Origin: Psychrobium sp. MM17-31
GTDB taxonomy: Bacteria > Pseudomonadota > Gammaproteobacteria > Enterobacterales > Psychrobiaceae
DNA: 64,000 nucleotides
Assembly: GCF_022347785.1 (NCBI RefSeq)
Contig: NZ_JAKRGA010000002.1
Span: 558,001-622,000, forward strand
Direction of reading: 5' to 3'
In this document: positions 9,403 to 64,000 of the stretch, one piece after another
Numbering within the stretch: the first letter of the stretch is position 1
Layout: each line of letters begins with the position of its first letter
Translations under genes and position numbers: made by a program
Notes under the pieces: model-generated
What the model was told of the DNA's origin: nothing
Seen by the model: only the letters and a program-made list of their open reading frames with translations
The model's database searches: none

Positions 9403-9494
9403 TACCTCAATAAATTGTCCCCAAGAGCAAGCAACTTCGCTACTTGGGAACATTTTGATTCTTTGCCAAAAACTAAACGGCAATCAGACAACAA

Positions 9495-9528
9495 AAAGCC
9501 CCGCCTATCAATCGATAAGCGGGGCTTT
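9495..9528. terminator. Bidirectional terminator between the large lipoprotein and the long AcnB gene
   Basis: AAAGCCCCGC pairs with GCGGGGCTTT, extended by TATC/GATA after one mismatch. Both flanks carry A/T runs. It sits between convergent genes and can serve both strands. Confidence 0.85.
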
Positions 9529-9549
9529 AAACGCTCTAAGAACTAACGA

Positions 9550-12354
9550 TTAAACGCGTTTTACAGGAACTGCAGCATCGTATTTAGTTGTCATTTCTTC
9601 TGTAGGCGGAGTAAAGCGTGTTAGGTCGATGCCTTCAACTGCTGACTTGTACTCGTCCATAGTTGGGAAACGACCAAGCACTGTTGAAAGAACTACTAAC
9701 GGTGTAGAACCTAGTAGTGATTCACCTTTCTTATCGCTTGCATCAGCTACAACACGGCCTTGGAATAGACGTGTTGAAGTAGCGATTACAGTGTCACCTG
9801 GTTCAGCTTTCTCTTGGTTACCCATACATAGGTTACAACCAGGACGCTCTAGGTACATGATGTTGTCGTACTTAGTACGTGCTGCTTCTTTCGGGTTAGT
9901 ATCGTCGAATACGAAACCAGAGTACTTAGCTAGGATATCCCAGTCGCCTTCAGCTTTTAGCTCATCAACGATGTTGTACGTTGGTGGAGCAACAACTAAT
10001 GGTGCTTTGAATTCGATAGCACCGTTTTGCTTCTCAAGGTTACGGAACATTTGCGCGATGATTTGCATATCGCCTTTGTGAACCATACAAGAACCTACGA
10101 AACCTAAATCTACTGGCTTGCCATCGTAGTAAGAAACTGGACGAATAACATCGTGAGTGTAGCGCTTAGATACGTCTTCGTTGTTTACGTCTGGATCGGC
10201 AATCATTGGCTCAGCAATAGCGTCTAAGTCAATTTCAACTTCAGCGTAGTACTTAGCGTTGTCATCTGGTGCTAGTGCTGGTTGCTCGCCAGACTTGATG
10301 CCTGCGATACGCTCGTCAGCTAGCTTGATTAAGCCACCTAGCATGCCTGCTTCGTTTTCCATACCCTTGTCGATCATGATTTGGATACGGCTCTTAGCAA
10401 GTTCGATAGACTCGATTAACGTCTCGTTGTTTGAGATACAGATAGACGCTTTCGCTTTCATTTCTGCAGACCAGTCAGTGAACGTGAACGCTTGGTCAGC
10501 TAGAAGAGTACCGATGTGTACTTCGATGATGCGACCTTGGAATACGTTTTCACCGTCGAACTGCTTAAGCATTTGTGCTTGTGTAGCATGTACGATATCA
10601 CGGAAGTCCATGTGACCAGCCATGTTGCCTTTGAACGTAACTTTTACCGACTCTGGAATTGGCATTGCCGATTCACCTGTTGCAAGCGCAATTGCAACCG
10701 TACCTGAGTCAGCACCGAATGCTACACCTTTAGACATACGCGTGTGAGAGTCACCACCGATAATGATTGCGCGATCATCGATAGTGATGTCGTTCAATAC
10801 TTTATGGATAACGTCAGTCATTGAGTGGTAAACGCCTTTTGGATCACGTGCTGTGATAACACCAAATGCGTTCATGAATGCCATTAGCTTAGGCGTGTTA
10901 GCTTTTGCTTTGTTGTCCCATACAGAAGCTGTGTGACAACCAGATTGGAAAGCACCGTCAACGCTTGTTGAGATAGTAGAAGCAGCCATAGCTTCTAATT
11001 CCTGACAAGTCATTGGACCCGTAGTATCTTGAGAACCAACGATGTTTACTTTAACACGTACGTCAGAACCGGCGTGTAGCGGCGCGTCGGAAGCAACACC
11101 TACTGCGTTGCGGTTAAAGATCTTCTCAACAGCAGTTAGGCCTTGGCCTTCATGAGAAATTTCTTTTGATTGTGCGTAAACGGCTGGCGCATCAACACCT
11201 AGCGTTTCCGCTGCGAAAGTTTGTAGCTTCTTACCGAAAGTAACAGCATAAGAACCGCCAGCTTTCATGAACTCCATTTTTTGTGGAGTGAATGCCGAAG
11301 AAATGTCTGCTAATTCGTCGCCGCCGTTGAATAATTTCTTCGCTTTCGTGTCGATAGTTAACACAGTACCTGTAGCAACTGAGTATGCTTCTTCTAGTAC
11401 TGGGTCGCCGTTAGCATCTGTTACTGTGTTGCCGTCTGCGTCTACTTTCTTAACCCAGTTTTTAAGGTCAAGACCGATACCACCTGTTACGTCAACAGTA
11501 GTTAGGAAGATAGGTGCGATACCGTTTGTACCAGCAACAACTGGTGCAATGTTAATGAATGGAACGTAAGGAGACGCTTGCTCACCAGCCCATAGTGCAA
11601 CGTTGTTAACACCTGACATACGAGAAGAACCAACACCCATGGTGCCTTTTTCAGCAACAAGCATAACTTTCTTGCCTGGGTGCTGCTCTTGAAGAGCAAC
11701 GATTTCTTGCTGTGCTTCAGGTGTAATCATACACTGGCCGTGTAATTCACGGTCCGCACGTGAGTGAGATTGGTGACCTGGAGATAATAAGTCAGTTGAG
11801 ATATCACCAACACCAGCGATGTAAGTAACAACTTCAATTTTCTCTTGAACTTCAGGAAGTTTAGTGAAGAACTCAGCGTTTGCGTAGCTTTCTAAAATGT
11901 CTTTTGCTACAGCATTACCCGCTTTGAATGCATCTTGTAAACGTGCAGTGTCAGCGTCGTATAAGAATACTTGCGTCTTAAGTACTGTTGCCGCTTGTGT
12001 TGCTAGTTCAGCATTATCACCTAGTGCTAAGTCTAGAAGTGCTGCGATTGATGGACCACCTTTCATGTGAGAAAGCAATTCGAAGGCAAACTCTACTGAA
12101 ATTTCAGCAACAGTTTCTTGGCCTGTGATGATTTCTTTTAGGAAAGCGGCTTTAACACCTGCAGCACTTGTTGTACCTGGCAGAGTGTTGTAAATGAAGA
12201 ATTTTAAAGACTCTTCGCGGTGCTCGTTACCAGTATCTTTGATTTGAGCGATGATTTCAGATAACAGCTCTGCGCTGTCGATTGGCTTTGGCGCAAGACC
12301 TAGTTCGGTTTTACGGCTTTCAATTTCTGCTAAATAATCTAAATACAGACTCAT
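9550..12354 (-). CDS. acnB: Aconitate hydratase B / 2-methylisocitrate dehydratase, long form
   Basis: A 934-residue AcnB-family [4Fe-4S] dehydratase, about 70 residues longer than the canonical form. The cluster ligands are Cys756 (in 'FVGSCMVHKGD'), Cys840 and Cys843 (in 'GCNLCMGNQ'). Active-site segments 'GSQDTTGPM' and 'IIGGDSHTRMS' are intact. Part of the extra length is an insertion around 'KKVDADGNTVTDANGDP' in the middle of the protein. It should interconvert citrate and isocitrate, possibly hydrating 2-methylaconitate as well. The long form resembles AcnB proteins I associate with Bacteroidota, so transfer is possible but untested. It is divergent from a second, canonical acnB 460 bp away. 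Upstream GAGAG supports the ATG at 12354. Confidence 0.88.
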   Translation of the reverse strand: MSLYLDYLAEIESRKTELGLAPKPIDSAELLSEIIAQIKDTGNEHREESLKFFIYNTLPGTTSAAGVKAAFLKEIITGQETVAEISVEFAFELLSHMKGGPSIAALLDLALGDNAELATQAATVLKTQVFLYDADTARLQDAFKAGNAVAKDILESYANAEFFTKLPEVQEKIEVVTYIAGVGDISTDLLSPGHQSHSRADRELHGQCMITPEAQQEIVALQEQHPGKKVMLVAEKGTMGVGSSRMSGVNNVALWAGEQASPYVPFINIAPVVAGTNGIAPIFLTTVDVTGGIGLDLKNWVKKVDADGNTVTDANGDPVLEEAYSVATGTVLTIDTKAKKLFNGGDELADISSAFTPQKMEFMKAGGSYAVTFGKKLQTFAAETLGVDAPAVYAQSKEISHEGQGLTAVEKIFNRNAVGVASDAPLHAGSDVRVKVNIVGSQDTTGPMTCQELEAMAASTISTSVDGAFQSGCHTASVWDNKAKANTPKLMAFMNAFGVITARDPKGVYHSMTDVIHKVLNDITIDDRAIIIGGDSHTRMSKGVAFGADSGTVAIALATGESAMPIPESVKVTFKGNMAGHMDFRDIVHATQAQMLKQFDGENVFQGRIIEVHIGTLLADQAFTFTDWSAEMKAKASICISNNETLIESIELAKSRIQIMIDKGMENEAGMLGGLIKLADERIAGIKSGEQPALAPDDNAKYYAEVEIDLDAIAEPMIADPDVNNEDVSKRYTHDVIRPVSYYDGKPVDLGFVGSCMVHKGDMQIIAQMFRNLEKQNGAIEFKAPLVVAPPTYNIVDELKAEGDWDILAKYSGFVFDDTNPKEAARTKYDNIMYLERPGCNLCMGNQEKAEPGDTVIATSTRLFQGRVVADASDKKGESLLGSTPLVVLSTVLGRFPTMDEYKSAVEGIDLTRFTPPTEEMTTKYDAAVPVKRV

Positions 12355-12814
12355 TGGACACTCTCTCGCTATCTAACGCTAATGCTCATTGTCATTAGCT
12401 GGGAATAATTTTGCGGCACATTTTACCTGATTTTTTGTTTACTATAAATCCTTTGAATGCGCAAACGACATTCATGCAGATTATGGTTAACATAAATAAT
12501 TCATATACAAGTGTAGCACTCATATCAATTGTGACAACGTGTTAAATCTTCGGCAAATTATCCTGCAATTTCACTCGTTAATTAGTCGTACAACTAACTT
12601 TACCGAAATATATAACCAACTGATATTTAATAACTATCAACAGCGTACATAATGAGGATTAACAATCTACACCCTAAGTCGAGTCAACAAATTTGATTAT
12701 TTCCGTAAGATGGTGATTAAAAATCAATCGTTGTTGGTTAACGTATCGTGAGAGATTTGTAGTACTAAGAAATAAGCTCTCCACCAACACTTATAATAAT
12801 AAGAGGTAATCACT
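12355..12814. other. 460-bp divergent intergenic region between two acnB genes
   Basis: AT-rich and without a convincing ORF, RNA or terminator. It must carry the promoters of both aconitase genes. A TATAAT at 12792-12797 is too close to the canonical acnB start (12815) to be confidently a -10 box. A clear ribosome-binding sequence AAGAGGT lies at 12801-12807. No regulator site was recognised. Confidence 0.6.
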
Positions 12815-15400
12815 GTGCTTGAACAATACCGTAAACACATCGAAGAGCGCGCCGCAGAAGGCGTTGTTCCTAAACCATTAGATGCAGCGCAAGTTGCTGA
12901 ATTAGTCGAGTTAGTTAAACAGCCACCAGCGGGCGAAGAAGAATTAGTCTTAGATTTACTTACCAATCGCGTGCCACCGGGCGTTGATGAAGCGGCTTAT
13001 GTTAAAGCAGGCTTTTTAGCCGCGGTTGCTAAAGGCGATACTAGCTCTCCTATTTTATCTAGTGAACGCGCGACTGAACTTCTTGGCACCATGCTCGGCG
13101 GCTATAACATCGCACCGATGATCGATTTATTGGATTCTGATCTTGCCGATACCGCCGCCGCTGGCTTAAAGAAAACGCTGTTAATGTTCGATGCCTTCTT
13201 TGATGTAAAAGAAAAAGCCGATGCGGGTAACGCAGCCGCTAAATCAGTAATACAATCATGGGCAGATGCCGAATGGTTTACTTCTCGCAATAAAGTGAGC
13301 GAAAAAATCACCGTTAAGGTGTTTAAAGTCACTGGTGAAACCAATACCGATGATCTCTCCCCTGCCCCAGACGCGTGGTCGCGTCCTGATATTCCAGTGC
13401 ACGCTAAAGCCATGTTAAAGATGGAGCGCGATGGCATTACTCCTGATGATGCTGGTCATGTTGGACCAATCAAGCAAATCGAAGCACTGCAACAAGACGA
13501 CATTCCACTGGCTTATGTCGGCGATGTTGTCGGCACAGGCTCTTCACGTAAATCCGCTACCAATTCAGTATTGTGGTTTATGGGAGAGGACATTCCGTTT
13601 GTGCCTAACAAGCGCACAGGCGGTGTCTGTTTAGGCGGAAAAATCGCACCAATTTTCTACAACACTATGGAAGACTCTGGCGCGCTGCCAATCGAGCTTG
13701 ACGTACAGCAAATGCATATGGGAGATATTATCGATATTTACCCGTATGAAGGTGTGGTCAAAAAAGGCGACGAAGTCATCTCAACCTTTGAGCTAAGTCC
13801 AGTATTGCTTGATGAAGTGCGTGCAGGCGGTCGTATTCCTTTAATCATTGGCCGCGGCCTAACAAGCCGCGCTCGCGAAGCCCTTGGCTTAGGCGAAACC
13901 GACTTATTTGCTAAACCTGTTGATGCAACAGACACCGGTAAGGGTTATACGCTAGCGCAGAAAATGGTGGGGAAAGCGTGCGGCGTTGAAGGGGTTCGTG
14001 CAGGTCAATACTGCGAGCCTAAGATGACAACTGTTGGCTCACAAGACACCACAGGGCCTATGACACGTGACGAGCTTAAAGATCTTGCCTGTCTTGGCTT
14101 TTCAGCAGATTTAACCATGCAATCTTTCTGTCACACATCTGCTTATCCAAAACCAGTGGACGTAAACACCCATCACACGCTACCTGATTTCATGATGAAT
14201 CGCGGCGGCGTGTCTCTGCGCCCCGGCGATGGTGTTATTCACTCATGGCTCAATCGTATGTTATTGCCTGATACTGTGGGTACAGGCGGCGATTCTCATA
14301 CTCGCTTCCCGCTCGGTATTTCTTTCCCAGCAGGCTCTGGTCTAGTGGCATTTGCCGCTGCAACTGGCGTGATGCCGCTTGACATGCCGGAGTCAGTATT
14401 AGTGCGCTTTAAAGGCGAGATGCAACCGGGGATTACGCTACGCGATCTAGTACACGCGATCCCTTATTACGGTATTAAAGCGGGAATTCTCACGGTAGAA
14501 AAAGCAGGTAAAGTGAACGAGTTTTCTGGTCGCGTATTAGAAATTGAAGGTCTTAAGGGGCTTACCGTCGAGCAAGCTTTTGAATTATCTGACGCCTCAG
14601 CTGAACGCTCAGCAGCAGGCTGTACTATCAAACTTGAAGAAGACGCGGTAAAAGAATATCTAGAATCAAACATTGTGATGCTCAAATGGATGATTTCTGA
14701 AGGCTATGGTGATGTGCGTACCATCGAGCGCCGTATCGCTGGCATGAAAGAATGGCTTGCCAATCCATCACTAATGACAGCCGATAGTGACGCCGAATAC
14801 GCTCATGTACTAGAAATCGACCTTAATGACATTAAAGAGCCTATCGTTTGTTGTCCTAATGATCCTGACGATGCCAAGCTATTATCAGAAGTTCACGGCG
14901 CTAAAGTCGACGAAGTCTTTATCGGCTCTTGTATGACTAACATTGGCCACTTCCGCGCGGCGGGTAAACTGATTGATGCTGCTAACACCACCTTACCAAC
15001 ACGCATGTGGGTGGCACCACCAACTAAAATGGATGCGCAGCAACTCACCAACGAAGGTTACTACAATATTTATGGCCGCGCTGGCGCACGCATCGAATCG
15101 CCGGGTTGTTCACTGTGTATGGGGAACCAAGCTCGCGTTGCGGAAAAATCAACGGTACTCTCAACTTCAACCCGCAACTTCCCGAATCGTTTAGGTACCG
15201 GCGCCAATGTCTACCTAACATCGGCAGAGCTCGCTGGTGTTGGCGCGATTTTAGGTAAGCTACCAAGTCCTGAAGAGTATATGGAATACGCCAAGCAAAT
15301 CGATGCGACGGCAGCTGATACTTATCGCTATCTCAACTTCCATCAAATGGAGAGTTACACCAAGAAAGCAGAAGGCGTTATTTTACAGCAACCTGCGTAA
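12815..15400 (+). CDS. acnB: Aconitate hydratase B, canonical form
   Basis: An 861-residue AcnB, matching the E. coli enzyme (865) from the first residues ('[15 protein letters not shown]') to the end. The [4Fe-4S] ligands are Cys706 ('[11 protein letters not shown]'), Cys765 and Cys768 ('GCSLCMGNQ'). These correspond to E. coli Cys710, 769 and 772 with a constant offset of four. '[12 protein letters not shown]' is the active-site Ser/His segment. It is the TCA-cycle aconitase and, by family knowledge, also a 2-methylisocitrate dehydratase. The start codon is GTG, supported by AAGAGGT eight bases upstream and by the conserved N-terminus. It is monocistronic, ending at a strong terminator. Confidence 0.95.
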
Positions 15401-54154: not shown

Positions 54155-55249
54155 TCAGCTACGGTGCAATGATGATTTACCCTTGCACTGCTTAGTTTCA
54201 CGCCAAGCAATAAATACCTTCGCTATTTTTACAAATTTTAATTCTATGAATTTCTCCGTGAGTAAGCTCACAAGACATGTAAGAAAAACAACAATAGCCA
54301 AAAATAACATTAATGAAATAATTCCATATCCTCTAAAGACATCTAAATAATCAGATTTTACAACATATGTAATGACGAAAAAGTGAAGTAAATACATTGA
54401 AAATGATAATTGTCCAATTCTCTGCAACCACTTCTTATTAAGAAGCACTACAGATTCAAAAATAAAAAACAAATGATAAAAAGACCAGGCAGACATTAAA
54501 GGAACAAAAGACACGTAAAATAGCGGTTTCAGTTGCCATATAATCAATGTACATAATGTTGTGCAAACAAACAGTATAAAATGGCTAATAATTGGCAATT
54601 GATTTTTTCGTTCTTTAATCGCACGATAAAGTATAATTCCGACAATAAAAACAGGTAATTGGTTTAACGGAGACCAGTATCCATATTTCCACAGGCTAGA
54701 ATAAGATGGCAATTCTAGCTGAAAATAAAGATTTTGCAGTAAACTAACTACAATAAAAAATGCAAAAATTCCCCATAAGTGCATTCTTTTATTATATTTC
54801 CTTAATAAGAAAAATAATGCAGGAAATATGAGATAAAAAATAAACTCAACGCCGATTGACCAGCCACCAGGAACAACAGCTCTAAACGCATCGACTGAAA
54901 AACCATGCAATAAAGTCACATGTAATAAGTAAAAAGAAAGAGTACTCTCAGCATTAGGAAAATGGTCAAAAACTAAAGGAGAATAAATAAAAACTCCTAA
55001 GATATACATAGGTGCAATTCTAAAGTAACGACGAATAAAAAAATTACCGACAGGATAGCGCTCTGCGCTTCGACTTTCCATTGACAGACATAACGTTAAG
55101 GCAGAAATAACAAAAAAAAGCTGAACCCCCATTCGACCATAAACAGTAAGGAACGTTGCAGTTTCCTGCAATGCTGGTCCAACATGAGTGGCAATAACCA
55201 TTAAAATTGCCACTCCTCTAAGAGAATCAATATGTTGATATTTACGCAT
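54155..55249 (-). CDS. Acyltransferase family 3 membrane protein (polysaccharide O-acyltransferase)
   Basis: 364 residues from the ATG at 55249 (GAGG upstream); the only in-frame extension needs a TTG at 55276. It has about ten transmembrane segments. The family signature 'YQHIDSLRGVAILMVIATHVG' with catalytic His is at the N-terminus, followed by 'GVQLFFVISALTLCLS' and 'FFIRRYFRIAPMYILG' (RxxR). These OafA/WecH-type enzymes move acetyl or another acyl group across the inner membrane onto a sugar. It lies between wzx and the GT cluster. Confidence 0.9.
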   Translation of the reverse strand: MRKYQHIDSLRGVAILMVIATHVGPALQETATFLTVYGRMGVQLFFVISALTLCLSMESRSAERYPVGNFFIRRYFRIAPMYILGVFIYSPLVFDHFPNAESTLSFYLLHVTLLHGFSVDAFRAVVPGGWSIGVEFIFYLIFPALFFLLRKYNKRMHLWGIFAFFIVVSLLQNLYFQLELPSYSSLWKYGYWSPLNQLPVFIVGIILYRAIKERKNQLPIISHFILFVCTTLCTLIIWQLKPLFYVSFVPLMSAWSFYHLFFIFESVVLLNKKWLQRIGQLSFSMYLLHFFVITYVVKSDYLDVFRGYGIISLMLFLAIVVFLTCLVSLLTEKFIELKFVKIAKVFIAWRETKQCKGKSSLHRS

Positions 55250-55295
55250 GCAAAGAGCCTCACAAAAAACAACCAAAAGTAAATAGGAACAGTTA

Positions 55296-56591
55296 TCAAC
55301 TACTCTTATTTATATATATTTTACCTAATAAAAACCAAACAGTAGCCAATATTAACTGCAATATAAATAATGCGAAAATGACACCATTGAGCCCCCAAAC
55401 GTAAGCGCATAATGCAACTACTAATAACTGATAAAATGATGAAAAAAGATTAATATTAACAGAGTACATCGGATTAACTGTATTCGAAAATGGACGAGCC
55501 CACCACTGCATTGAAGCAAAGACCATAGTGAAAGATATTATTAAAAAATATAAAAAATAGTTTGATACAACATTAAGCGACATAAAGCCTAATAAGGCAT
55601 CAAAGAAACCACCTGCTAGAACAATATAAGCCATTGAAAATAAAAGCACATACTTACAGACTTTAAGAATCATCATTTGTGATTGCTGCATGTTATTTTC
55701 TTCAAAGGACTTAATCATTTTAGGATAAGTGAGCATTGCAAGCGGTTGTACAATTATTGCTATTGGACTTACTAACTTCTTAACAGTTTGATAAACACCT
55801 ACAGCCTGCGCATCAACAAAATACCCTATAATCAAACTCTCAATATTTTGATTCCCAGCTTTTAAACTACTGGAAGTAAATGTCTTTAAATTAAACCTCC
55901 AGTATTCAGCCCAAATTTCTCGATTATAAGTAGTTGCATAGCCTTTATAATAACGCTGAAAATCTGCATAGAATTTCATAGACATAATTAACCACGAAAG
56001 CGCATTAGCAAACACTATAGAAATAATTAAAAACTCAAGAGTAGGAGAGAAAAAATATACAAATATACTAATAAATAAAATATTTAAAACCGCAGTCAGA
56101 GAACTAAATATATTAATAACAATAAAGTTTTCTTTCGCCTGATAAAAGCCCGTAAGAGTTCCCTTAAGAAAACCAAAAAACACCACAAAAGCATATAAAA
56201 AAAGTTCTAATGCATATTTAGCGTCTTTAAGAAAAAAACTAGAAAACCAGCCAGCTACAATATACGACAAAAGCAACAATAAAAAGGCAGTTAGAAGATC
56301 TACAAGTAGACCAGTCACAATAACAAACTTAGCACTTTCCCAATTTTCACTTAGTTCTTCTCTTTTTAAAAACCGAGTGACAGCTTCGGAACTGCGTGCA
56401 GTGACTACTGATGAAAAAATCCCTATAGTCGCTAATATAATTGAGAATTGTCCAAATATCTCAACCCCATAAAATCGATTAATTAAAAATAGCTGTATGA
56501 AGCCAGCTAAAATAGTTATCGCTTGCGTGCCATAACTAGATAGTAAATCGATAGAAAATTTGCTACTAGTTAATTTTTGTATTGAGCTCAC
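55296..56591 (-). CDS. wzx: Wzx-type oligosaccharide flippase
   Basis: A 431-residue polytopic protein with about 12 transmembrane segments, of the polysaccharide transporter/MATE-like family: 'GTQAITILAGFIQLFLINRFYGVEIFGQFSIILA' is the typical N-terminal hairpin, and 'AQAVGVYQTVKKLVSPIAIIVQPL' is characteristic of flippases. It should translocate the lipid-linked repeat unit across the inner membrane. Its start overlaps the upstream unknown gene by one base. The symbol follows function; Wzx proteins share little sequence. Confidence 0.87.
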   Translation of the reverse strand: MSSIQKLTSSKFSIDLLSSYGTQAITILAGFIQLFLINRFYGVEIFGQFSIILATIGIFSSVVTARSSEAVTRFLKREELSENWESAKFVIVTGLLVDLLTAFLLLLLSYIVAGWFSSFFLKDAKYALELFLYAFVVFFGFLKGTLTGFYQAKENFIVINIFSSLTAVLNILFISIFVYFFSPTLEFLIISIVFANALSWLIMSMKFYADFQRYYKGYATTYNREIWAEYWRFNLKTFTSSSLKAGNQNIESLIIGYFVDAQAVGVYQTVKKLVSPIAIIVQPLAMLTYPKMIKSFEENNMQQSQMMILKVCKYVLLFSMAYIVLAGGFFDALLGFMSLNVVSNYFLYFLIISFTMVFASMQWWARPFSNTVNPMYSVNINLFSSFYQLLVVALCAYVWGLNGVIFALFILQLILATVWFLLGKIYINKSS

Positions 56592-57523
56592 TATTTATTC
56601 CCAATAAATCTGGTAATCCCAAGTAGGCTTAGTATCTTTAATAGAAACGATTTAAATAATACAAATGGTAATGAAGCAGATTTGAATGGAACCGTACGTA
56701 CAAGTGAATCTTTAACTATATATTGAGAAATACGCTTAACAAGCTCTTTATTCTCATAACTTTCATTTACTACCACTTTACTTACTTTTTTACTAAATTT
56801 ATCTACCTCTTTTTGCGCATCAAAGAATACATCCTTTCCCTGCCATTCCTGCATGTATGCTTTAATATACCAATCAAACTTTAACTTAAAATCTTCGAGC
56901 GTCTCGATACCAAAAACATCAATGATATAAAATGGAAAATCTCGTTGTAAACCACCTTTCCATCCATAACGAGCACCTTTATACTCCATCACATCTACGT
57001 CAATTTTTATATCATCAACAAAGTCAAGATTTGCAATCAATGGCAGTAACGAATTGGGATAACAAACCTTGTCATATAGCTGAAAAGCTTTTGCAAAATA
57101 CCCAAAAGGCCTGCCTTCAGCTTTAATTCTCTCTAAATAAACTCGCATATTATGACTATTTTCATCATCAATATAACAATTTATTGCTGAGCAAAACAAA
57201 AAGTCCATATGCTCATTTTTAGCGACATGGAGCGAGTGATTATATGCATTATATATTTTATAAATACTAAAACACTCTACCCCTGTCTCATCCAGTTCAA
57301 AAAGAACATCATCAATGACAACTAATTCGACATTAGGAATGTTTATTTCTAAACCAATGTTTTGTCGCGTGGTACTATATAAATATACTTTATCGAAAGC
57401 TTGCGCTTGAATAGCTAAAGCATCTCTCCATATATATTGATATCCATACCGGTCTAAAGCCCCAATTGGAATACATGCAGCAACTTTTACTTCAGAACTA
57501 CTCACTACTAGATTTCCTTTCAT
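56591..57523 (-). CDS. Unknown protein of the polysaccharide locus, possibly a glycosyltransferase
   Basis: 310 residues from the ATG at 57523; the only extension uses a TTG at 57532. I do not recognise the family. The N-terminus 'VKVAACIPIGALDRYGYQYIWRDALAIQAQAFDKVYLYST' and a 'FLFCSAINCYIDDE' segment (a possible DxD-like acidic pair) are reminiscent of GT-A transferases. The C-terminal ~30 residues are basic and hydrophobic ('LPFVLFKSFLLKILSLLGITRF'), suggesting membrane association. It lies between the aminotransferase and wzx. A role in adding or handling the amino sugar is only inferred from position. Confidence 0.6.
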   Translation of the reverse strand: MKGNLVVSSSEVKVAACIPIGALDRYGYQYIWRDALAIQAQAFDKVYLYSTTRQNIGLEINIPNVELVVIDDVLFELDETGVECFSIYKIYNAYNHSLHVAKNEHMDFLFCSAINCYIDDENSHNMRVYLERIKAEGRPFGYFAKAFQLYDKVCYPNSLLPLIANLDFVDDIKIDVDVMEYKGARYGWKGGLQRDFPFYIIDVFGIETLEDFKLKFDWYIKAYMQEWQGKDVFFDAQKEVDKFSKKVSKVVVNESYENKELVKRISQYIVKDSLVRTVPFKSASLPFVLFKSFLLKILSLLGITRFIGNK

Positions 57524-57543
57524 AAAGCACAAATATGCTCAAT

Positions 57544-58647
57544 TTAACCTTCATAAGAATTTATAACCGAGATAATCTTGGATATATCGGATTCTTCCAA
57601 ATGAGCACCGATTGGCAATGATAAAATAGATCCATGAATAGCTTCAGTAGTAGGAAAATGTAAGTCACTTAAAGATTTGTAAGCTTGTTGCTTATGCGGA
57701 GGAATAGGATAATGAATTAGTGTTTGTATTCCATTTTCGTCTAAAAATTTAGCCAAATCATCTCGCTTATCTGACTGAATAACGAACAGGTGCCATACAT
57801 GCCCCGTCTTGCTAACAACATGAGGCATTGTAAGTGAAGAGTTCGTTATCTCAGCTAAATAACGCTCAGAAATTTTATTGCGCAACTCAATCTCTCTATC
57901 TAAATACTTTAACTTAACTCGAAGCATTGCAGCTTGAATTTCATCAAGCCGACTATTTACTCCTTGGTATATATTTTGATATTTTTTCTCACTGCCGTAA
58001 TTTCCAAGCACTCGAATTGTTCGAGCTAACTCATCGTCATTCGTAGTCACAGCACCAGCATCTCCCAGTGCCCCTAAATTTTTTCCCGGGTAAAAGCTAA
58101 AACCACTGGCATGTCCCCAGTTCCCCGCCTTTATGCCATTGACTTCAGCACCGTGTGCTTGTGCAGAATCTTCTAAAACCAATAAGTTGTACTTTTCTGC
58201 CACTCTCATAATAGCAGGCATATCACTTAGCTGCCCATATAAGTGTACAGGCAGTATTACTCTCGTTTTATCGGTAATAGCAGCTTCTGTGTTTAAGGGA
58301 CACAAATTAAAAGTATTAGGCTCAGGCTCTACTAAAACTGGTTTTAAGTTGTTTTCTGTTATTGCTAGAATACTGGCGATATATGTGTTCGCAGGAACTA
58401 TAACCTCGTCACCGTCTTGAATCCGGCCAAGCTCCCTCCATGCCCGTAAAGTTAGAGTTAAGGCATCTAAACCGTTAGCAACACCTATGCAATACTTGGT
58501 ACCACACCAAGAAGCAAACTCTTGTTCGAATGCCTGAGTTTCAGTTCCTTGAACATACCAACCAGACTCTATAACGCTAGCACAAGCGTTTTTTAATTCA
58601 GATTGGTATTGTTCGTTAATTTTTTTTAAATCCAGAAAGTTAATCAT
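57544..58647 (-). CDS. fdtB: DegT/DnrJ/EryC1/StrS-family sugar aminotransferase (FdtB/QdtB-like)
   Basis: A 367-residue PLP enzyme. The PLP lysine is Lys189 in '[17 protein letters not shown]'. '[11 protein letters not shown]', '[14 protein letters not shown]' and '[14 protein letters not shown]' closely resemble the 3-keto-sugar aminotransferases FdtB and QdtB. It should aminate dTDP-3-keto-6-deoxyhexose at C3 using glutamate, giving dTDP-Fuc3N or dTDP-Qui3N; sequence alone does not separate these. It follows the hexapeptide acyltransferase by nine bases, and the ketoisomerase of the same pathway is encoded upstream in the operon. Confidence 0.87.
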
Positions 58648-58656
58648 TTTATTTAG

Positions 58657-59394
58657 TTACTTTTCATTAAACCAAGATTGAATATCACTCTCGCTATAGC
58701 CACGATGAAATCTCTCTCGCCACGGGTAAGCTTTGATTTTGGGATTATCGTGCATTCGTAATACCTTTGCATCGCACATGATTTTAGAAGGATTCCCGTT
58801 AACAAGTTTTCCTTCTGGAATATCGTCCTTAACAAGCGTTCCTGCAGCAACGACAGCATCTTTTCCTATAGCTACACCTGGTAACACTAATACTTTAGCA
58901 GCCAAAACAGCAAAGTCTTCAATCGAAACTCCTAACAATGTATCACTCGGAGGCATGGGATCATTAGTTAGTAACACTTCAGGGAACAGCCAGACATAAT
59001 TGCCTATCTTAGATTGCTTCCCAATGTGAACGTCTGCATGCATTTTGGTATAATTACCAATTTCACAATCCCCTTGTATATCTCCTCTAGAGCCGATTTG
59101 GCAATGTTCTCCAATCAAACTATTCTCTCTAATTGACACATAATGACCGGAATGAAAATTAGCACCAATATCAGACCCAATATAGATAACAGAATGACTA
59201 CGAATAACTGAATTATCACCTATTTTAAGTGATTGCTTCTTAGCCAGTGCACTTGGTAACCCAATCTCACAATAATTACCGATAGTTGTATTGTCGGATA
59301 TTACAACGTGATCATGCACAATCGAAAAAGCACCGATAGTAACATTTGAACCTAATGTTGCATTTGGTGAAATAATAGCTGTTGAATGAATCAT
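58657..59394 (-). CDS. Left-handed beta-helix (hexapeptide repeat) acyltransferase
   Basis: 245 residues from the ATG at 59394 (the in-frame codon before it is TTG). Nearly all of the protein is hexapeptide repeats: 'ATLGSNVTIGAFSIV', 'NTTIGNYCEIG', 'GDCEIGNYTKMHADVHIGK', 'VLVLPGVAIGKDAVVAAGTLV'. The catalytic His is likely one in 'HADVHIGK' or 'SHSVIYIG'. Related enzymes N-acylate dTDP-amino sugars (QdtC, FdtC) or, like LpxA/LpxD, use acyl-ACP. Its position between a private ACP/reductase set and the aminotransferase suggests that it transfers the ACP-bound acyl group to the 3-amino sugar. Confidence 0.83.
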   Translation of the reverse strand: MIHSTAIISPNATLGSNVTIGAFSIVHDHVVISDNTTIGNYCEIGLPSALAKKQSLKIGDNSVIRSHSVIYIGSDIGANFHSGHYVSIRENSLIGEHCQIGSRGDIQGDCEIGNYTKMHADVHIGKQSKIGNYVWLFPEVLLTNDPMPPSDTLLGVSIEDFAVLAAKVLVLPGVAIGKDAVVAAGTLVKDDIPEGKLVNGNPSKIMCDAKVLRMHDNPKIKAYPWRERFHRGYSESDIQSWFNEK

Positions 59395-59405
59395 CAATTG
59401 TCTCT

Positions 59406-60131
59406 CTACGCGGTGCTACCGGCATCTACAGTTAAAGTTGTACCAGTTATTGATTCGGCACTGTCAGATAATAAAAACGTGATTGCCTTTGCAGCATCAT
59501 CTACTTTAGCTAACTTCCCTAAAGGACTTCTGCGCTTGATACTCGCTAACTTATCGCCTTGTAGTCCCTCTGTCATTGCTGTTTCCATATAACCGGGTGC
59601 GATGGTATTCACCGTAATATTGGCCTTACCAACTTCCCTAGACAGGGATTTTGTGAACCCCCCAAGTGCAGATTTAGTCGCTCCATATACACTCAACCCA
59701 TTAAAGCCAGTAGAACCAATTATCGATCCAACATTAACAATTCTCCCTTTCCTATTAAGTAACATAGAACGAGAAACGTATTTTGTTAAGAGTATTGGCG
59801 CTTCAATATTGACTGCTATTAACGATTTGATATCAATTTCATGCATGGTTCCTAAAACACCATCATGCCCTAATGCAGCATTATTCACTAATGCATATGG
59901 TCTTCCATGCTCTTTCACAATAATTTTGACCAATGATGATATTTCACTAGTATTATGAAAATCAAAAGCATAGAAGAAAACACTATTTCGATTAGCTTCC
60001 ATCAAGTCTGAAAATTCGACCGTTATAGAACGGCTTATCCCTACGACAATGTATCCTAACCTGATTAATTCGGCGCTAGTTGCTAGGCCAAGCCCTTTTG
60101 TTGCTCCTGTAATAATAACTACTGGCTTCAT
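59406..60131 (-). CDS. SDR-family reductase, FabG-like 3-oxoacyl-ACP reductase
   Basis: 241 residues from the ATG at 60131, which is one base past the AMP-ligase stop; a longer frame to 60161 would overlap that gene by 29 bases. The NAD(P) motif 'IITGATKGLGLATSAEL' and the catalytic 'YGATKSALGGFTKSLSRE' (YxxxK) are followed by 'VNTIAPGYMETAMTEGL' and the C-terminal 'SITGTTLTVDAGST', all typical of FabG. In this locus it may reduce a 3-oxoacyl-ACP to the (R)-3-hydroxyacyl-ACP. A sugar-ketone substrate is the alternative. Confidence 0.83.
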   Translation of the reverse strand: MKPVVIITGATKGLGLATSAELIRLGYIVVGISRSITVEFSDLMEANRNSVFFYAFDFHNTSEISSLVKIIVKEHGRPYALVNNAALGHDGVLGTMHEIDIKSLIAVNIEAPILLTKYVSRSMLLNRKGRIVNVGSIIGSTGFNGLSVYGATKSALGGFTKSLSREVGKANITVNTIAPGYMETAMTEGLQGDKLASIKRRSPLGKLAKVDDAAKAITFLLSDSAESITGTTLTVDAGSTA

Positions 60132-60132
60132 T

Positions 60133-61479
60133 CTAATTTCTCGCAATTTTTCCTGACTCATTTGTATTAATCACATCAACATTTTTTATTAATGCAGGTA
60201 CTTTATATGCCTCTAGGTGTTCCCTACAATGTCTCAATATTTGAGACTTCAACTCTTTGTTATCTAGAGACTTTGCAGTTTCATTGACTACGATTTCAGC
60301 GCAAACTAAAGTCCCTAAGACCGCACTCTTCTTACCAAATACTCTAGACAACGAAATATGCTCAAATAAATTTAATACGGCCTCGATTTCTTCTGGTATT
60401 ACTTTGCTACCACCAACATTGATTGAGCCATTTTTACGGCCACAAAAAATAACTCTATTATCTTTAATTTTAACGACATCACCAGTATCTATATAACCGA
60501 GTTCATCAACTTCTAGCTCACCTACTAATAATGTTTTCGAGCCTCTTGCAGTCTTAATCCACAAATTATCTCCCTTAACCTTCAAGCTTAGCGAAAGGTG
60601 ATTATCATTACTCAAATATGCAATGGGAAAACCTGCTTTGCCATCCTTAACAGAAAAGCCGACACCAGCCTCCGTTGACGCATAAATATGAACAATAGTT
60701 GCGTGCTGATATTGTCTTTTGAGTGCATTTAAAATTGTTTGATCAGAGATCTCTCCGCCTAGTGTTATTCTCTTAAGAGGAAGGAGTGAGCAAGCAGGAG
60801 ACATGAGTAGTTTACGCCAAAACGAAGGAGTACCTGACATTGCATTTACTGAATTAGATGAAAATAATTCAATATACGAATTTGGAGAGTCAATACCATC
60901 AGGGATTACTAAACAAGAACCAGAGCTTATACCTTGTAAATACACTTGCAGACCAGCAAATCGATTAATGTCATAACATACCCCCCAAACATATTCTTTT
61001 CCTACCTTCAGGTCTGCTTTACATGTCGATAGTAAAGATGCCAACTTATACGATGCTAACTTGGGGCTCCCTGTAGTACCTGAAGTTGCTAACAGCCAAC
61101 CTTCATGTTCTTTGTGTATAGTTTCTTTATGCTCAATCGAAGTGACGACGATGTTGTCATCAGAGATATCAACTAAGTATTCGATGCTAGCAGCTAAATA
61201 AAAATTATCGATAGCCTCTTGTGATAAATTAGCTGGTTGTAAAAATATGGCTGATGCCAGACTATCAACACAAGGAAGGTAAAGTGCCAACGAAGAATTC
61301 ACATCAGCTCTTATCGCACAACGAGCATTTTCCAAAAAAGAATATAGAGATGAAAACCTATTAATGAGCTCTTTTAACTGCCCATAATTTACGTTTTTTT
61401 TATGAGAAACAATAAAACTTCTATCAGACGGAATTAAATCAATAAGTTCAATAAGTTTATGAGGCATTGCAAGACTCAT
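60133..61479 (-). CDS. ANL-superfamily AMP-ligase (acyl-ACP or acyl-CoA synthetase-like)
   Basis: A 448-residue adenylating enzyme, short for the family (usually 500-550). The AMP-binding P-loop is 'LLATSGTTGSPKLASYK', then 'YASTEAG', 'GYIDTGDVV' and the hinge 'FCGRKNGSINVGGSKVIPEEIEAVL'. The C-terminal catalytic lysine is Lys444 in 'ESGKIARN'. It overlaps the ACP gene by 23 bases, so a role in loading a carboxylic acid onto that ACP is strongly suggested. The N-terminal region before the P-loop is shortened to ~130 residues. Met5 (61467) is an alternative start. Confidence 0.87.
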   Translation of the reverse strand: MSLAMPHKLIELIDLIPSDRSFIVSHKKNVNYGQLKELINRFSSLYSFLENARCAIRADVNSSLALYLPCVDSLASAIFLQPANLSQEAIDNFYLAASIEYLVDISDDNIVVTSIEHKETIHKEHEGWLLATSGTTGSPKLASYKLASLLSTCKADLKVGKEYVWGVCYDINRFAGLQVYLQGISSGSCLVIPDGIDSPNSYIELFSSNSVNAMSGTPSFWRKLLMSPACSLLPLKRITLGGEISDQTILNALKRQYQHATIVHIYASTEAGVGFSVKDGKAGFPIAYLSNDNHLSLSLKVKGDNLWIKTARGSKTLLVGELEVDELGYIDTGDVVKIKDNRVIFCGRKNGSINVGGSKVIPEEIEAVLNLFEHISLSRVFGKKSAVLGTLVCAEIVVNETAKSLDNKELKSQILRHCREHLEAYKVPALIKNVDVINTNESGKIARN

Positions 61480-61705
61480 AAATACTTACAAACTCACCAA
61501 ATGTTCTTGGGTAAACAGGCGTGTCCATAATCTGAAATGGATCTATATCTAATTCTTCTTCCAACAATGCAACTAAAATTGCAAACCCAAGAGAATCTAA
61601 TCCGGTCTCTAAAAGCACAGCGTCATCATTGATTTCTTCATATTGCATCGGTTTATCAGTTTGCTGCAATGCTTCATTAAATGTTTTTAAAATCACTTCT
61701 TTCAT
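61457..61705 (-). CDS. Acyl carrier protein
   Basis: An 82-residue acidic four-helix carrier protein. The phosphopantetheine attachment site is Ser38 in 'ETGLDSLGFAILVALLEEEL', the standard DSL motif. The rest ('VYPRTFGEFVSIYESC') fits helix IV. It overlaps fdtA by four bases (ATGA) and the ligase gene by 23, so it is a dedicated carrier of this operon rather than the housekeeping AcpP. A phosphopantetheinyl transferase must be supplied from elsewhere. Confidence 0.9.
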   Translation of the reverse strand: MKEVILKTFNEALQQTDKPMQYEEINDDAVLLETGLDSLGFAILVALLEEELDIDPFQIMDTPVYPRTFGEFVSIYESCNAS

Positions 61706-62112
61706 TTGTTCTCTCCTGACATAAGTTGCTTAAATACGTCGTAACCTCTAATGTAATCAGATTCATCATACCACGCGTTTGCTAGCACCATTAACACACA
61801 ATCACCACTAAAGTCATGCATTTCCCGCCATATCATCTTATCGATGAATAGCCCTACACTAGAATCAGACAATTCGACAGTTTCTTGTTGCTTACCATCA
61901 TCCATCAAAATTTTGCAACTGCCGCTAACACAAACTAATACTTGCTGAAGGTCTTTATGCGCATGAAAACCTCTTGGTTTGTCGCTTTCCATGCCATGCA
62001 TGTAATATACACGCTTAATGTCAAATGGTATGTTTTTATTGCTTTCAAGCGAAATAAGTTGCCCTCGTTCATCGCCAAGAGATTCAAATTTTATTAATTT
62101 TATTAAGCTCAC
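61702..62112 (-). CDS. fdtA: dTDP-4-keto-6-deoxyglucose 3,4-ketoisomerase (FdtA/WxcM-like cupin)
   Basis: A 136-residue cupin very similar to FdtA: '[16 protein letters not shown]', the active-site pair His50/His52 in '[16 protein letters not shown]', and '[16 protein letters not shown]' at the C-terminus. It should move the keto group of dTDP-4-keto-6-deoxyglucose (made by RfbB) from C4 to C3, giving the substrate of the aminotransferase. FdtA and QdtA differ in the C4 stereochemistry of the product, and I cannot decide between them by eye. It overlaps rfbA and the ACP gene by four bases each. Confidence 0.87.
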
Positions 62113-62984
62113 GTATTTTCCTTAGCAAGTTTCTTCAAATAGTCGCCATAACCGTTTTTCTTAAACTTATCGGCGCGATTTAAAAGCTCCTGATGAGAAA
62201 GCCAACCTTGACTCCACGCAATCTCCTCTAAGCAAGCTACTTTTAAGCCTTGTCTATGCTCTATAGTTTGAACAAAATGACTCGCCTCTAACAAACTTTC
62301 ATGAGTCCCAGTATCTAACCAGGCAAATCCACGCCCCAGTAGTTCGACATGTAAATCACCGCGTTCTAAATAAACATTATTAATGCAAGTAATTTCTAAT
62401 TCACCGCGCTCTGATGGTTTTATAGATTTCGCAATTTCTACTACATCATTGTCGTAGAAATATAGACCTGTAACAGCATAATTTGACTTCGGTTTTTCAG
62501 GCTTTTCTTCGATAGAAAGCGCCTTCATGTTGTCATTAAATTCGACAACGCCAAAGCGTTCTGGATCTTTGACTTGATAACCAAAAACAGTTGCACCGTG
62601 ATTTTTGCTAGCGGCGTTAGTTAACTTTGGAGTAAAGCCCTGTCCATAGAAAATATTATCACCCAATACTAAACAAACACTGTCATTACCGATAAATTCT
62701 TCTCCGATAATAAAAGCCTGCGCTAAACCATCTGGTGAAGGTTGAATAGCATACGAGACATTGATCCCAAATTGCTTACCATCCGCCAGAAGGCGTTGGT
62801 AACCACTAATATCCTCAGGTGTCGAAATAATTAATACATCACGAATACCGGCTAACATAAGCACAGATAACGGATAAAATATCATTGGCTTATCATAAAT
62901 TGGTAAAAGCTGCTTCGAAACTCCTTGAGTTATAGGATGTAGACGCGTACCTGAACCGCCTGCTAAAATAATTCCCTTCATCAA
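62109..62984 (-). CDS. rfbA: Glucose-1-phosphate thymidylyltransferase
   Basis: A 291-residue nucleotidyltransferase making dTDP-glucose. '[43 protein letters not shown]' is the RmlA signature; '[21 protein letters not shown]' and '[19 protein letters not shown]' complete the active site. It lies one base after rfbB and overlaps fdtA by four bases. dTDP-glucose passes to RfbB. rmlC and rmlD are not in the visible part, so rhamnose is not the evident product. Confidence 0.97.
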
Positions 62985-62985
62985 T

Positions 62986-64000
62986 CTACCCTTTTATACC
63001 TAAACGCTCTCTCGTATACGAGCCATCTAATACTCTTTTCCACCAACTTTCATTAGACAGGTACCACTGGACAGTTTTTCGAATACCACTATCAAAAGTT
63101 TCCATAGGAGACCATCCTAAATCACGCTCTATTTTTGCAGCATCGATTGCATAACGAACGTCATGACCAGGACGATCTGCGACAAAACAAATTAAATCTT
63201 CGTATTTTTCCACGTTATTAGGCTTGTTCGGCACTAACTTTTCCATTATTGAGCAAATAGCTCTAACAACATCAATATTCGCCTTTTCATTATGACCGCC
63301 AATATTATAGGTTTCGCCAACCTTTCCTTTAGTTGCAACTAAATACAGCGCTTGCGCATGGTCATCAACATATAACCAGTCTCTAATTTGCTGACCATCA
63401 CCGTATACTGGTAATGCTTTCCCTTCTAACGCATTTAATATTATCAATGGAATTAGTTTTTCTGGAAAATGAAACGGTCCATAATTATTGGAGCAATTGG
63501 TGACCACCACCGGCAAACCGTAAGTTCTGCCCCATGCTCTTACAAGATGGTCGCTAGATGCTTTTGATGCAGAATATGGACTACTTGGAGAATAACTAGT
63601 ATTCTCGGTAAATAAGTCATCTGTACCCTCTAAATCACCATATACTTCATCTGTTGAGATATGATGAAATCTGAATTTTTTTTTGTTTTCTTGAGATAGT
63701 GAAAGCCAATACTTCCTTGCCGTTTCTAGGAGTGTATATGTCCCAATTATATTAGTTTGAATAAACTCTGACGGCCCATCAATTGAGCGGTCAACATGGC
63801 TTTCTGCGGCTAAATGCATTACGACATCAGGCCTATATAAAGAGAATATCCTTTCTAACTCTTCTCCGTGACAAATATCTACTTGTTCAAAATAATATCT
63901 CGGAGATGACGATACATTAATTAAAGATTCTAAATTACCTGCATAGGTCAATTTATCTACATTAACTACTGAATCATTCGTATGCTCAATTATATGTCTA
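62986..64000 (-). CDS. rfbB: dTDP-glucose 4,6-dehydratase, 5' end beyond the window
   Basis: The frame runs into the right edge, so the N-terminal ~20-25 residues with the Rossmann glycine motif are missing. The first visible residues read '[22 protein letters not shown]', matching RmlB internal sequence, so the apparent start near 63951 (a TTG) is not real. '[17 protein letters not shown]', '[11 protein letters not shown]', '[15 protein letters not shown]' (YxxxK) and '[15 protein letters not shown]' are intact. It makes dTDP-4-keto-6-deoxyglucose for FdtA. Confidence 0.96.

Follow-up and report, generated by a model that had tools for sequence, protein, structure and literature searches.

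A dTDP-3-amino sugar operon of Psychrobium with a private acyl carrier protein, an acyl ligase and a MupS-like reductase: a candidate source of 4-hydroxybutanoyl amino sugars

A 64,000-nucleotide stretch of the Psychrobium sp. MM17-31 genome (contig NZ_JAKRGA010000002.1, positions 558,001 to 622,000; hereafter the window) carries a minus-strand operon in which genes for a deoxythymidine diphosphate (dTDP)-linked amino sugar are interleaved with genes for an acyl carrier protein (ACP), an AMP-forming acyl ligase and a short-chain dehydrogenase/reductase (SDR), the last three being referred to below as the trio. We consider it probable (roughly 0.6) that this module builds a dTDP-linked 3-amino-3,6-dideoxyhexose that is N-acylated with 4-hydroxybutanoate from the private ACP and is destined for a surface polysaccharide. 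By analogy with characterised homologues, RmlA and RmlB would form dTDP-4-keto-6-deoxyglucose, from which the FdtA-type isomerase would produce the 3-keto sugar, and the aminotransferase would install the 3-amino group. In the order of steps that we favour, the precursor, probably succinyl-CoA, would be adenylated by the ligase at its free carboxylate and loaded onto the private ACP; reduction by the MupS-like SDR would turn the far end into an alcohol and so yield 4-hydroxybutanoyl-ACP; and the hexapeptide transferase would then pass the 4-hydroxybutanoyl group, presumably from the ACP rather than from CoA, to the 3-amino group of the sugar.

The genes run rmlB-rmlA-fdtA-ACP-ligase-SDR-LbH-aminotransferase, where LbH is a left-handed beta-helix (hexapeptide) N-acyltransferase, and they are nearly gapless. 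The rmlA/fdtA and fdtA/ACP pairs each overlap by 4 bp, ACP/ligase by 23 bp and ligase/SDR by 29 bp (the last two overlaps would be shorter if internal ATGs that are present were used as starts), and the SDR-LbH and LbH-aminotransferase gaps are 8 and 9 bp. An earlier note, made from the letters of the window alone, had placed the six genes from fdtA to the aminotransferase here; all are found, and their families are matched by Pfam or NCBIfam (Table 1). Its view that they act as one unit is upheld by the spacing and by conservation of the order in relatives. It was also right about a private ACP (Ser38 in DSL) with an adenylating enzyme and a reductase of its own, about a hexapeptide acyltransferase standing with enzymes for a dTDP-3-amino-3,6-dideoxyhexose, and about the lack of a ketosynthase among the six genes.

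The order FdtA-ACP-ligase-SDR-LbH-aminotransferase, which the earlier note had proposed looking for elsewhere, recurs in three further loci, each with an rmlB homologue upstream: L009 (genome G055, of another family), where the whole series from rmlB and rmlA to the aminotransferase is present at 49-76% identity to the window; L019, in a metagenome-assembled genome labelled Aliivibrio; and L168. Such recurrence makes the order more than a matter of chance. Because the SDR and the ligase, for both of which trees were built, hardly differ between L009 and L019, we count these two loci as one lineage, and the six-gene order is thus found in three lineages, the window included. A permuted order, ACP-ligase-SDR-LbH followed by FdtA and the aminotransferase, occurs in L045, L062 and L078; in L062 (5639-7156) FdtA and the aminotransferase are fused in a single 505-residue frame next to ligase-SDR-LbH.

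The sugar part of the module is readily placed. In comparisons with the PDB the closest solved relative of the isomerase is FdtA (2pa7), followed by QdtA, and its PF05523 match is the sole one in the genome; the solved relatives of the aminotransferase are the sugar aminotransferases 5u1z, 7n63 and QdtB (3frk). With an FdtA/QdtA-type isomerase, a 3-aminotransferase, rmlA and rmlB all present, the genes of a dTDP-Qui3N/Fuc3N pathway are complete, and to judge from these families the sugar is probably dTDP-3-amino-3,6-dideoxyhexose, either Qui3N or Fuc3N. Two isomerase positions, R16 and the R in WREM, are those we take to decide between Fuc3N and Qui3N; they are Arg/Arg in the window, in L009 and in L103 (the same gene as in L168), and Arg/His in L019. 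The transferase matches QdtC (3fs8) over residues 4-243, which puts it in the QdtC family, and it stands after the ACP-ligase-SDR trio in relatives.

The evidence on the acyl group comes largely from the SDR. Its best solved relative in a PDB search is MupS (4yxf), and a tblastn search of 72,556 plasmid records gave four matches at E<1e-45, a cut-off of our own choice. Two of them carry the trio, a third is a Burkholderia record in which a ligase and an SDR are followed by a small gene, and the fourth is pTML1 of Pseudoalteromonas sp. SANK 73390, which we take to be the thiomarinol plasmid. The gene order on pTML1 is ligase-SDR-ACP-polyketide synthase, and the first three are presumably TmlQ, TmlS and TacpD, although the record itself gives generic names. 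Conversely, of the 16 places that the pTML1 SDR matches in the Psychrobium genome, the window SDR scores best (169.2 against 138.7 bits). In a tree of hand-picked rows (SDRs of 14 of the 58 loci with a ligase-SDR tandem described below, the window, L009, L011, L012, a plasmid sequence QaS, four Mup/Tml-type SDRs and, from the 15 other SDRs of the genome, all but one that was dropped for length), the 19 trio SDRs and the four Mup/Tml-type SDRs form one group with support 98/99, apart from the 14 others. The motifs RR.[PC]L and [DE]G.L.T[ML] occur in 42 and 47, respectively, of the 58 trio SDRs and are absent from the 15 other own-genome SDRs scanned. By these comparisons the SDR belongs to the MupS/TmlS clade, and MupS and its thiomarinol-plasmid counterpart are the closest characterised relatives found for it. 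In the mupirocin pathway MupQ, MupS and MacpD convert malonyl-CoA to 3-hydroxypropionyl-ACP, and the thiomarinol side chain is primed with 4-hydroxybutanoyl, according to the passages cited (PMC10098928). Since the SDR groups with MupS, the reductase of an omega-hydroxyacyl-ACP set, and with the pTML1 SDR, the group that it reduces is probably not a 3-oxo group, the case for which the earlier note had allowed. By analogy with the mupirocin system, the acid is also unlikely to come ready-made and free; a dicarboxylic acid, supplied as its CoA ester, is the more probable precursor.

Turning to the other two members of the trio, Ser38 of the ACP, in GLDSL, is invariant in six aligned homologues. 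A search with the ACP gave a single match in the genome of the window (E<=0.001) and two in the plasmid records, and blastp against a 12-protein database picked up the ACPs from a pair of related plasmid cassettes (5.5e-5 and 2.3e-4). In an alignment of 29 ligases the SGT of the P-loop, the GG.K of motif A8 (motif names that we presume to apply) and Lys444 are invariant, as is Arg173, which lies beside the likely substrate region. An AlphaFold2 model of the ligase (pLDDT 86.7) has ANL enzymes, among them MenE, DltA and EntE, as its best fold matches, and the pTML1 ligase ranks the window ligase first of four places in the genome (100.1 against 58.1 bits; by blastp, 119 against 87.8). A search of the plasmids with the ligase found 196 records, mainly from Sinorhizobium and Azospirillum. 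On several Azospirillum plasmids a MupS-type match lies directly beside the ligase match (e.g. NZ_CP059450.1 768135-769780), so further ligase-SDR pairs exist.

A second line of evidence is the match between one of the relatives and a published polysaccharide. The L168/L169 region (genome G651, 2.7 Mb) has, besides the six genes, a sulfotransferase (PF00685), a PglD-type acetyltransferase (PF17836), a sugar transferase (PF02397), a second DegT aminotransferase and, about 8 kb further on, a 641-residue dehydratase (PF02719). G651 is the only one of 19 genomes in its genus to have the ACP. The antigen of Idiomarina abyssalis KMM 227T is described as containing sulfated Quip2S3N(4Hb), with 4-hydroxybutanoyl on Qui3N (PMC9912281), and N,N'-diacetylbacillosamine (PMC8074265). 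By gene content L168/L169 fits this unit of sulfated Qui3N(4Hb) and bacillosamine. The cited descriptions also report 3-(4-hydroxybutyramido)-3,6-dideoxygalactose from a marine bacterium (PMC3210612) and 4-hydroxybutanoyl on pseudaminic acid (Pse; PMC9912281).

Could the trio make something else? The best placed of the alternatives, though unlikely, is that it makes another small acyl-ACP (lactyl, glyceroyl, succinyl, dihydroxybutanoyl or aminoacyl), the SDR altering the acyl group before or after loading. The invariant Arg173 of the ligase would suit several polar acids, and lactyl-Fuc3N, glyceroyl-Qui4N and other small N-acyl groups are on record in the survey cited (PMC9912281), but this explanation is less parsimonious than kinship with MupS.

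Next, and quite unlikely, comes a 3-hydroxyacyl group made by the same route, with the ligase loading acetoacetate or another 3-oxo acid and the SDR acting like FabG to give (R)- or (S)-3-hydroxybutanoyl-ACP and hence Fuc3N(3Hb) or Qui3N(3Hb). By profile the SDR is indeed FabG-like (TIGR01830, 191 bits, below the cut-off of 298), and 3-hydroxybutanoyl forms of Fuc3N, Qui3N and Pse all appear in published descriptions. (R)-3-Hydroxybutanoyl-ACP, however, is an ordinary intermediate of fatty acid synthesis. To account for Fuc3N(R3Hb) and Qui3N(R3Hb) loci, rml, fdtAB or qdtAB and a single transferase (FdhC or QdhC) are invoked, with no trio mentioned in the passages cited (PMC4869667), and a set of five genes is described for Fuc3N(R3Hb) (PMC3726653). 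Since 3-hydroxybutanoyl loci are thus described without ACP, ligase or reductase, the presence of all three here points to an acid other than 3-hydroxybutanoyl, as does the grouping of the SDR with MupS. A blastn search of 20,395 E. coli records with DNA of the trio from Yersinia ruckeri gave no match, though at that sensitivity distant copies would be missed. On the trio-less published loci and the MupS grouping we rejected 3-hydroxybutanoyl as the simplest acyl group, which had been the prediction of the earlier note; its outline of activation, loading on ACP, reduction and transfer stands. Its premise that known Fuc3N/Qui3N pathways end in N-acetylation also needs amending, (R)-3-hydroxybutanoyl and formyl derivatives being among those in the published accounts.

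Third, and improbable, is a C3 product: as in mupirocin, malonyl-CoA would be loaded, its reduction would give 3-hydroxypropionyl-ACP, and the sugar would end up with 3-hydroxypropanoyl. This accords with MupS being the best solved relative and with the product of MupQ, MupS and MacpD, but the derivatives on the same acceptor sugars in the descriptions cited above carry 4-hydroxybutanoyl, and L168/L169 fits one of these. That the transferase instead uses acetyl-CoA like QdtC, its closest solved relative, while the trio works for some other molecule or is simply carried along, is most improbable even though family members occur in the trio-less FdtA loci L166 and L167, because the trio lies at the same place inside the sugar operon in three lineages and beside sugar genes, permuted, in L045, L062 and L078.

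Several observations weigh against 4-hydroxybutanoyl, or against the kinships on which we base it. In the PDB search with the window SDR the margin of MupS over FabG is just some 5 bits. A blastp search of the 12-protein database with the window ACP misses the pTML1 ACP at 1e-3. The ligase tree (27 rows, likewise hand-picked) does not decide kinship to the pTML1 ligase; the substrate-side motif is RFAG in 50 of the 58 trio ligases and HIGG in the pTML1 ligase; and, after two trio-bearing records, the best plasmid ligase matches are from Azospirillum, pTML1 not being among the best 20 of 196. That the pTML1 ligase, SDR and ACP are the makers of the 4-hydroxybutanoyl starter is our presumption. 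The mupirocin set yields 3-hydroxypropionyl, so membership of the family does not fix chain length. For omega-hydroxyacyl-ACP formation the passages cited name only the mupirocin set (PMC10098928). The transferase adds a further point: when 369 genomes from the class were searched, its two close relatives outside the window (>240 bits) were those of L166 and L167, so, going by these loci, the QdtC-type family does not need the trio. As to the published antigen, we infer the assignment of the L168/L169 genome to Idiomarina, and FdtA occurs in 2 of 17 genomes of another genus of the same family (g114), both times with a short LbH and an aminotransferase and without the trio beside them; the I. 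abyssalis match would fail if either of these genomes were that species. A distant ACP match lies elsewhere in both; in one of them its neighbours are PseB-, PseC- and Maf-like genes, with neither ligase nor SDR.

The trio is more widespread than the six-gene order. The ACP was found in 6 of 98 genomes sampled as relatives and in 11 of 394 of the order, two counts that each include the genome of the window; one other family has it in 63 of 395 genomes. A scan of named genomes gave 130 candidate stretches, 108 of them relatives, and the best 80 of the 108 by ACP similarity were kept as loci; by record titles they span several phyla. A ligase-SDR tandem was recognised in 58, the other 22 (partly contig ends, or open reading frames lost to the overlap filter) being omitted from the counts of context, in which gene labels are those of the nearest profile among our own references, not family assignments, save for a few checked with Pfam (L010-L012). 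At least three pseudaminic-acid-type core genes accompany the tandem in 15 of the 58 loci and at least two in 22; a PseH-like GNAT is found in 21, a flagellin, FliD or Maf gene in 12, and a free FdtA in 3. The Pfam check gave NeuB and a GNAT domain in L010 and a GNAT in L011; in L012 it gave NeuB and a Maf glycosyltransferase, plus a GNAT match below threshold. Judged by such neighbourhoods, the ACP-ligase-SDR trio is a portable cassette, often beside pseudaminic-acid-type genes. Rheinheimera or Alishewanella (L076, L080) is among its bearers. In the Pse-type operon of L010, which has the trio and an Antibiotic_NAT-type protein, the PseH-like GNAT is fused to a MaoC domain (6685-7599).

Other loci pair the trio with a third kind of candidate transferase. 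In L020, in L024 (Y. ruckeri; Table 1) and, with split frames, in L021, the genes next after the trio encode a ~330-residue protein, with no Pfam match, and a polysaccharide deacetylase; in L023 the protein follows without the deacetylase, and in L034 the ACP and the protein/deacetylase pair share a locus with genes reading as NeuB- and NeuC-like. For the 334-residue protein of the Y. ruckeri island AlphaFold2 gave a weak model (pLDDT 63), whose Foldseek matches are led by an axonemal protein, then mainly GNAT acetyltransferases. This variety suggests that one acyl-ACP may serve several acceptors. The Y. ruckeri trio sits among apparent transposase fragments near a mutS-like frame, outside the NeuB-bearing cluster L135 (the presumed O1 locus). 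The O1 antigen of this species presumably bears a 4-hydroxybutanoyl nonulosonic acid, which we did not use as support; a 4-hydroxybutanoyl group in that antigen was not found in the literature searched. In L021 (Vibrio maritimus) the ligase and the 330-residue protein each appear split over two frames (9227-10581 and 11212-12286). At L166 (6272-7436) the trio-less QdtC-type transferase adjoins a MaoC-like gene, which may offer a different way to a hydroxyacyl donor.

Within the window the six genes sit in an A+T-rich part: in 2-kb steps the G+C content is 0.32-0.39 from 40001 on and 0.40-0.47 before. Downstream of the module are a flippase-like gene and several glycosyltransferase-like genes, in frames read by eye without a family search. 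Directly after the aminotransferase (56591-57532) lies a gene for a 313-residue protein with no Pfam or NCBIfam match, possibly a glycosyltransferase. A membrane acyltransferase (PF01757) at 54155-55276 belongs to the same locus, and the polysaccharide may thus also be O-acylated.

Table 1. Genes of the module, listed in order of transcription, and the related Yersinia feature; positions are those of the window unless a locus is given
Feature	Position	Strand	Evidence or remark
rmlB-like dTDP-glucose 4,6-dehydratase	62986..63999	-	Open at window end, 5' end beyond window (locus L008)
rmlA, glucose-1-phosphate thymidylyltransferase	62109..62984	-	NCBIfam TIGR01207, 514.3 bits (cut-off 360.65)
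fdtA/qdtA-type dTDP-6-deoxyhexose 3,4-ketoisomerase	61702..62112	-	Pfam PF05523, E 2.5e-49
Dedicated ACP	61457..61705	-	PF00550; Ser38 in GLDSL
AMP-forming acyl ligase (ANL fold), probably loading ACP	60133..61479	-	PF00501/PF13193
SDR reductase, MupS type	59406..60161	-	Best solved relative MupS 4yxf
LbH (hexapeptide) N-acyltransferase, QdtC family	58657..59397	-	QdtC 3fs8, E 1.1e-56
Pyridoxal phosphate-dependent sugar 3-aminotransferase, FdtB/QdtB type (DegT)	57544..58647	-	PF01041, E 2.1e-107
~330-residue protein and deacetylase after trio	L024 11282-13245		Yersinia ruckeri ATCC 29473

How does the module compare with known systems? With the dTDP-Qui3N and dTDP-Fuc3N pathways (QdtA-C, FdtA-C) and with FdhC/QdhC it has the isomerase, 3-aminotransferase and N-acyltransferase families in common. 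FdhC/QdhC loci, by published description, have no dedicated ACP, ligase or reductase, whereas the module has all three and so is not of that type. With the mupirocin MacpD-MupQ-MupS and pTML1 sets it shares an ACP, an AMP-forming ligase and an SDR, the SDRs falling in one supported group and the genes being adjacent on pTML1 as well; there, however, a polyketide synthase follows ligase-SDR-ACP, whereas the module reads ACP-ligase-SDR and has no such synthase, the ligases have diverged, and the product goes to a polyketide instead of, as we propose, to a sugar amine. The perosamine tetronate genes of Vibrio cholerae O1 are also said to include ACP-like and ligase-like members proposed to acylate an amino sugar, although sugar, acid and enzymes differ from those here. 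The wfpC-G genes of Flavobacterium psychrophilum, for dihydroxyhexanoyl on Qui2NAc4N, resemble the module in having a private ACP, a ketoreductase and a hexapeptide (PglD-like) acyltransferase proposed for hydroxyacylation of a sugar amine, but they include two ketosynthases, the transferase acts on a 4-amino group, and a ligase is nowhere mentioned (PMC6519341).

Closest in setting is Aeromonas, where, going by the gene descriptions in the passages cited, the same three kinds of gene stand beside pseudaminic acid genes, as the trio does in many of our relatives; LuxE and LuxC are also there, and no acyl group is assigned in those passages (PMC7874193). The flagellin linking sugar of Aeromonas AH-3, given as 376.14 Da (PMC7874193), equals Pse with one acetyl and one dihydroxybutanoyl group (computed 376.148), and a 102 Da unit in the same account equals C4H6O3 (computed 102.032). 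For Pse bearing one acetyl and one hydroxybutanoyl group, whether 3- or 4-hydroxy, the computed residue mass is 360.153 Da. A LuxC search recognised no set as Aeromonas; the only LuxC-bearing set found was L152, with another ACP and ligase. This legionaminic-like locus (genome G126, 6403-14036) has relatives of the 330-residue protein (32%) and of the deacetylase (63%), together with an apparently different ACP, a ligase, a LuxE-like gene and a LuxC-bearing gene, and recalls the Aeromonas Group II islands.

In the literature searched, as far as the accounts consulted go, we found no genes assigned to 4-hydroxybutanoyl amino sugars, though the sugars themselves are known in polysaccharides. As a wider and more tentative proposal, to which we give slightly less than even odds, the starter cassette akin to that of mupirocin and thiomarinol could be a general bacterial tool for surface sugars, spread through several phyla and supplying 4-hydroxybutanoyl-ACP to at least three unrelated types of transferase: beta-helix enzymes for Qui3N or Fuc3N, PseH-like GNATs for flagellar pseudaminic acid, and the ~330-residue GNAT-like protein, with its deacetylase, for legionaminic-type acids. 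If so, three genes would predict 4-hydroxybutanoyl decoration from sequence, and the presence of the trio beside pseudaminic-acid-type genes would be explained. It would also give a short list of enzymes for direct testing, and would link an antibiotic-starter system to surface and flagellar glycans.

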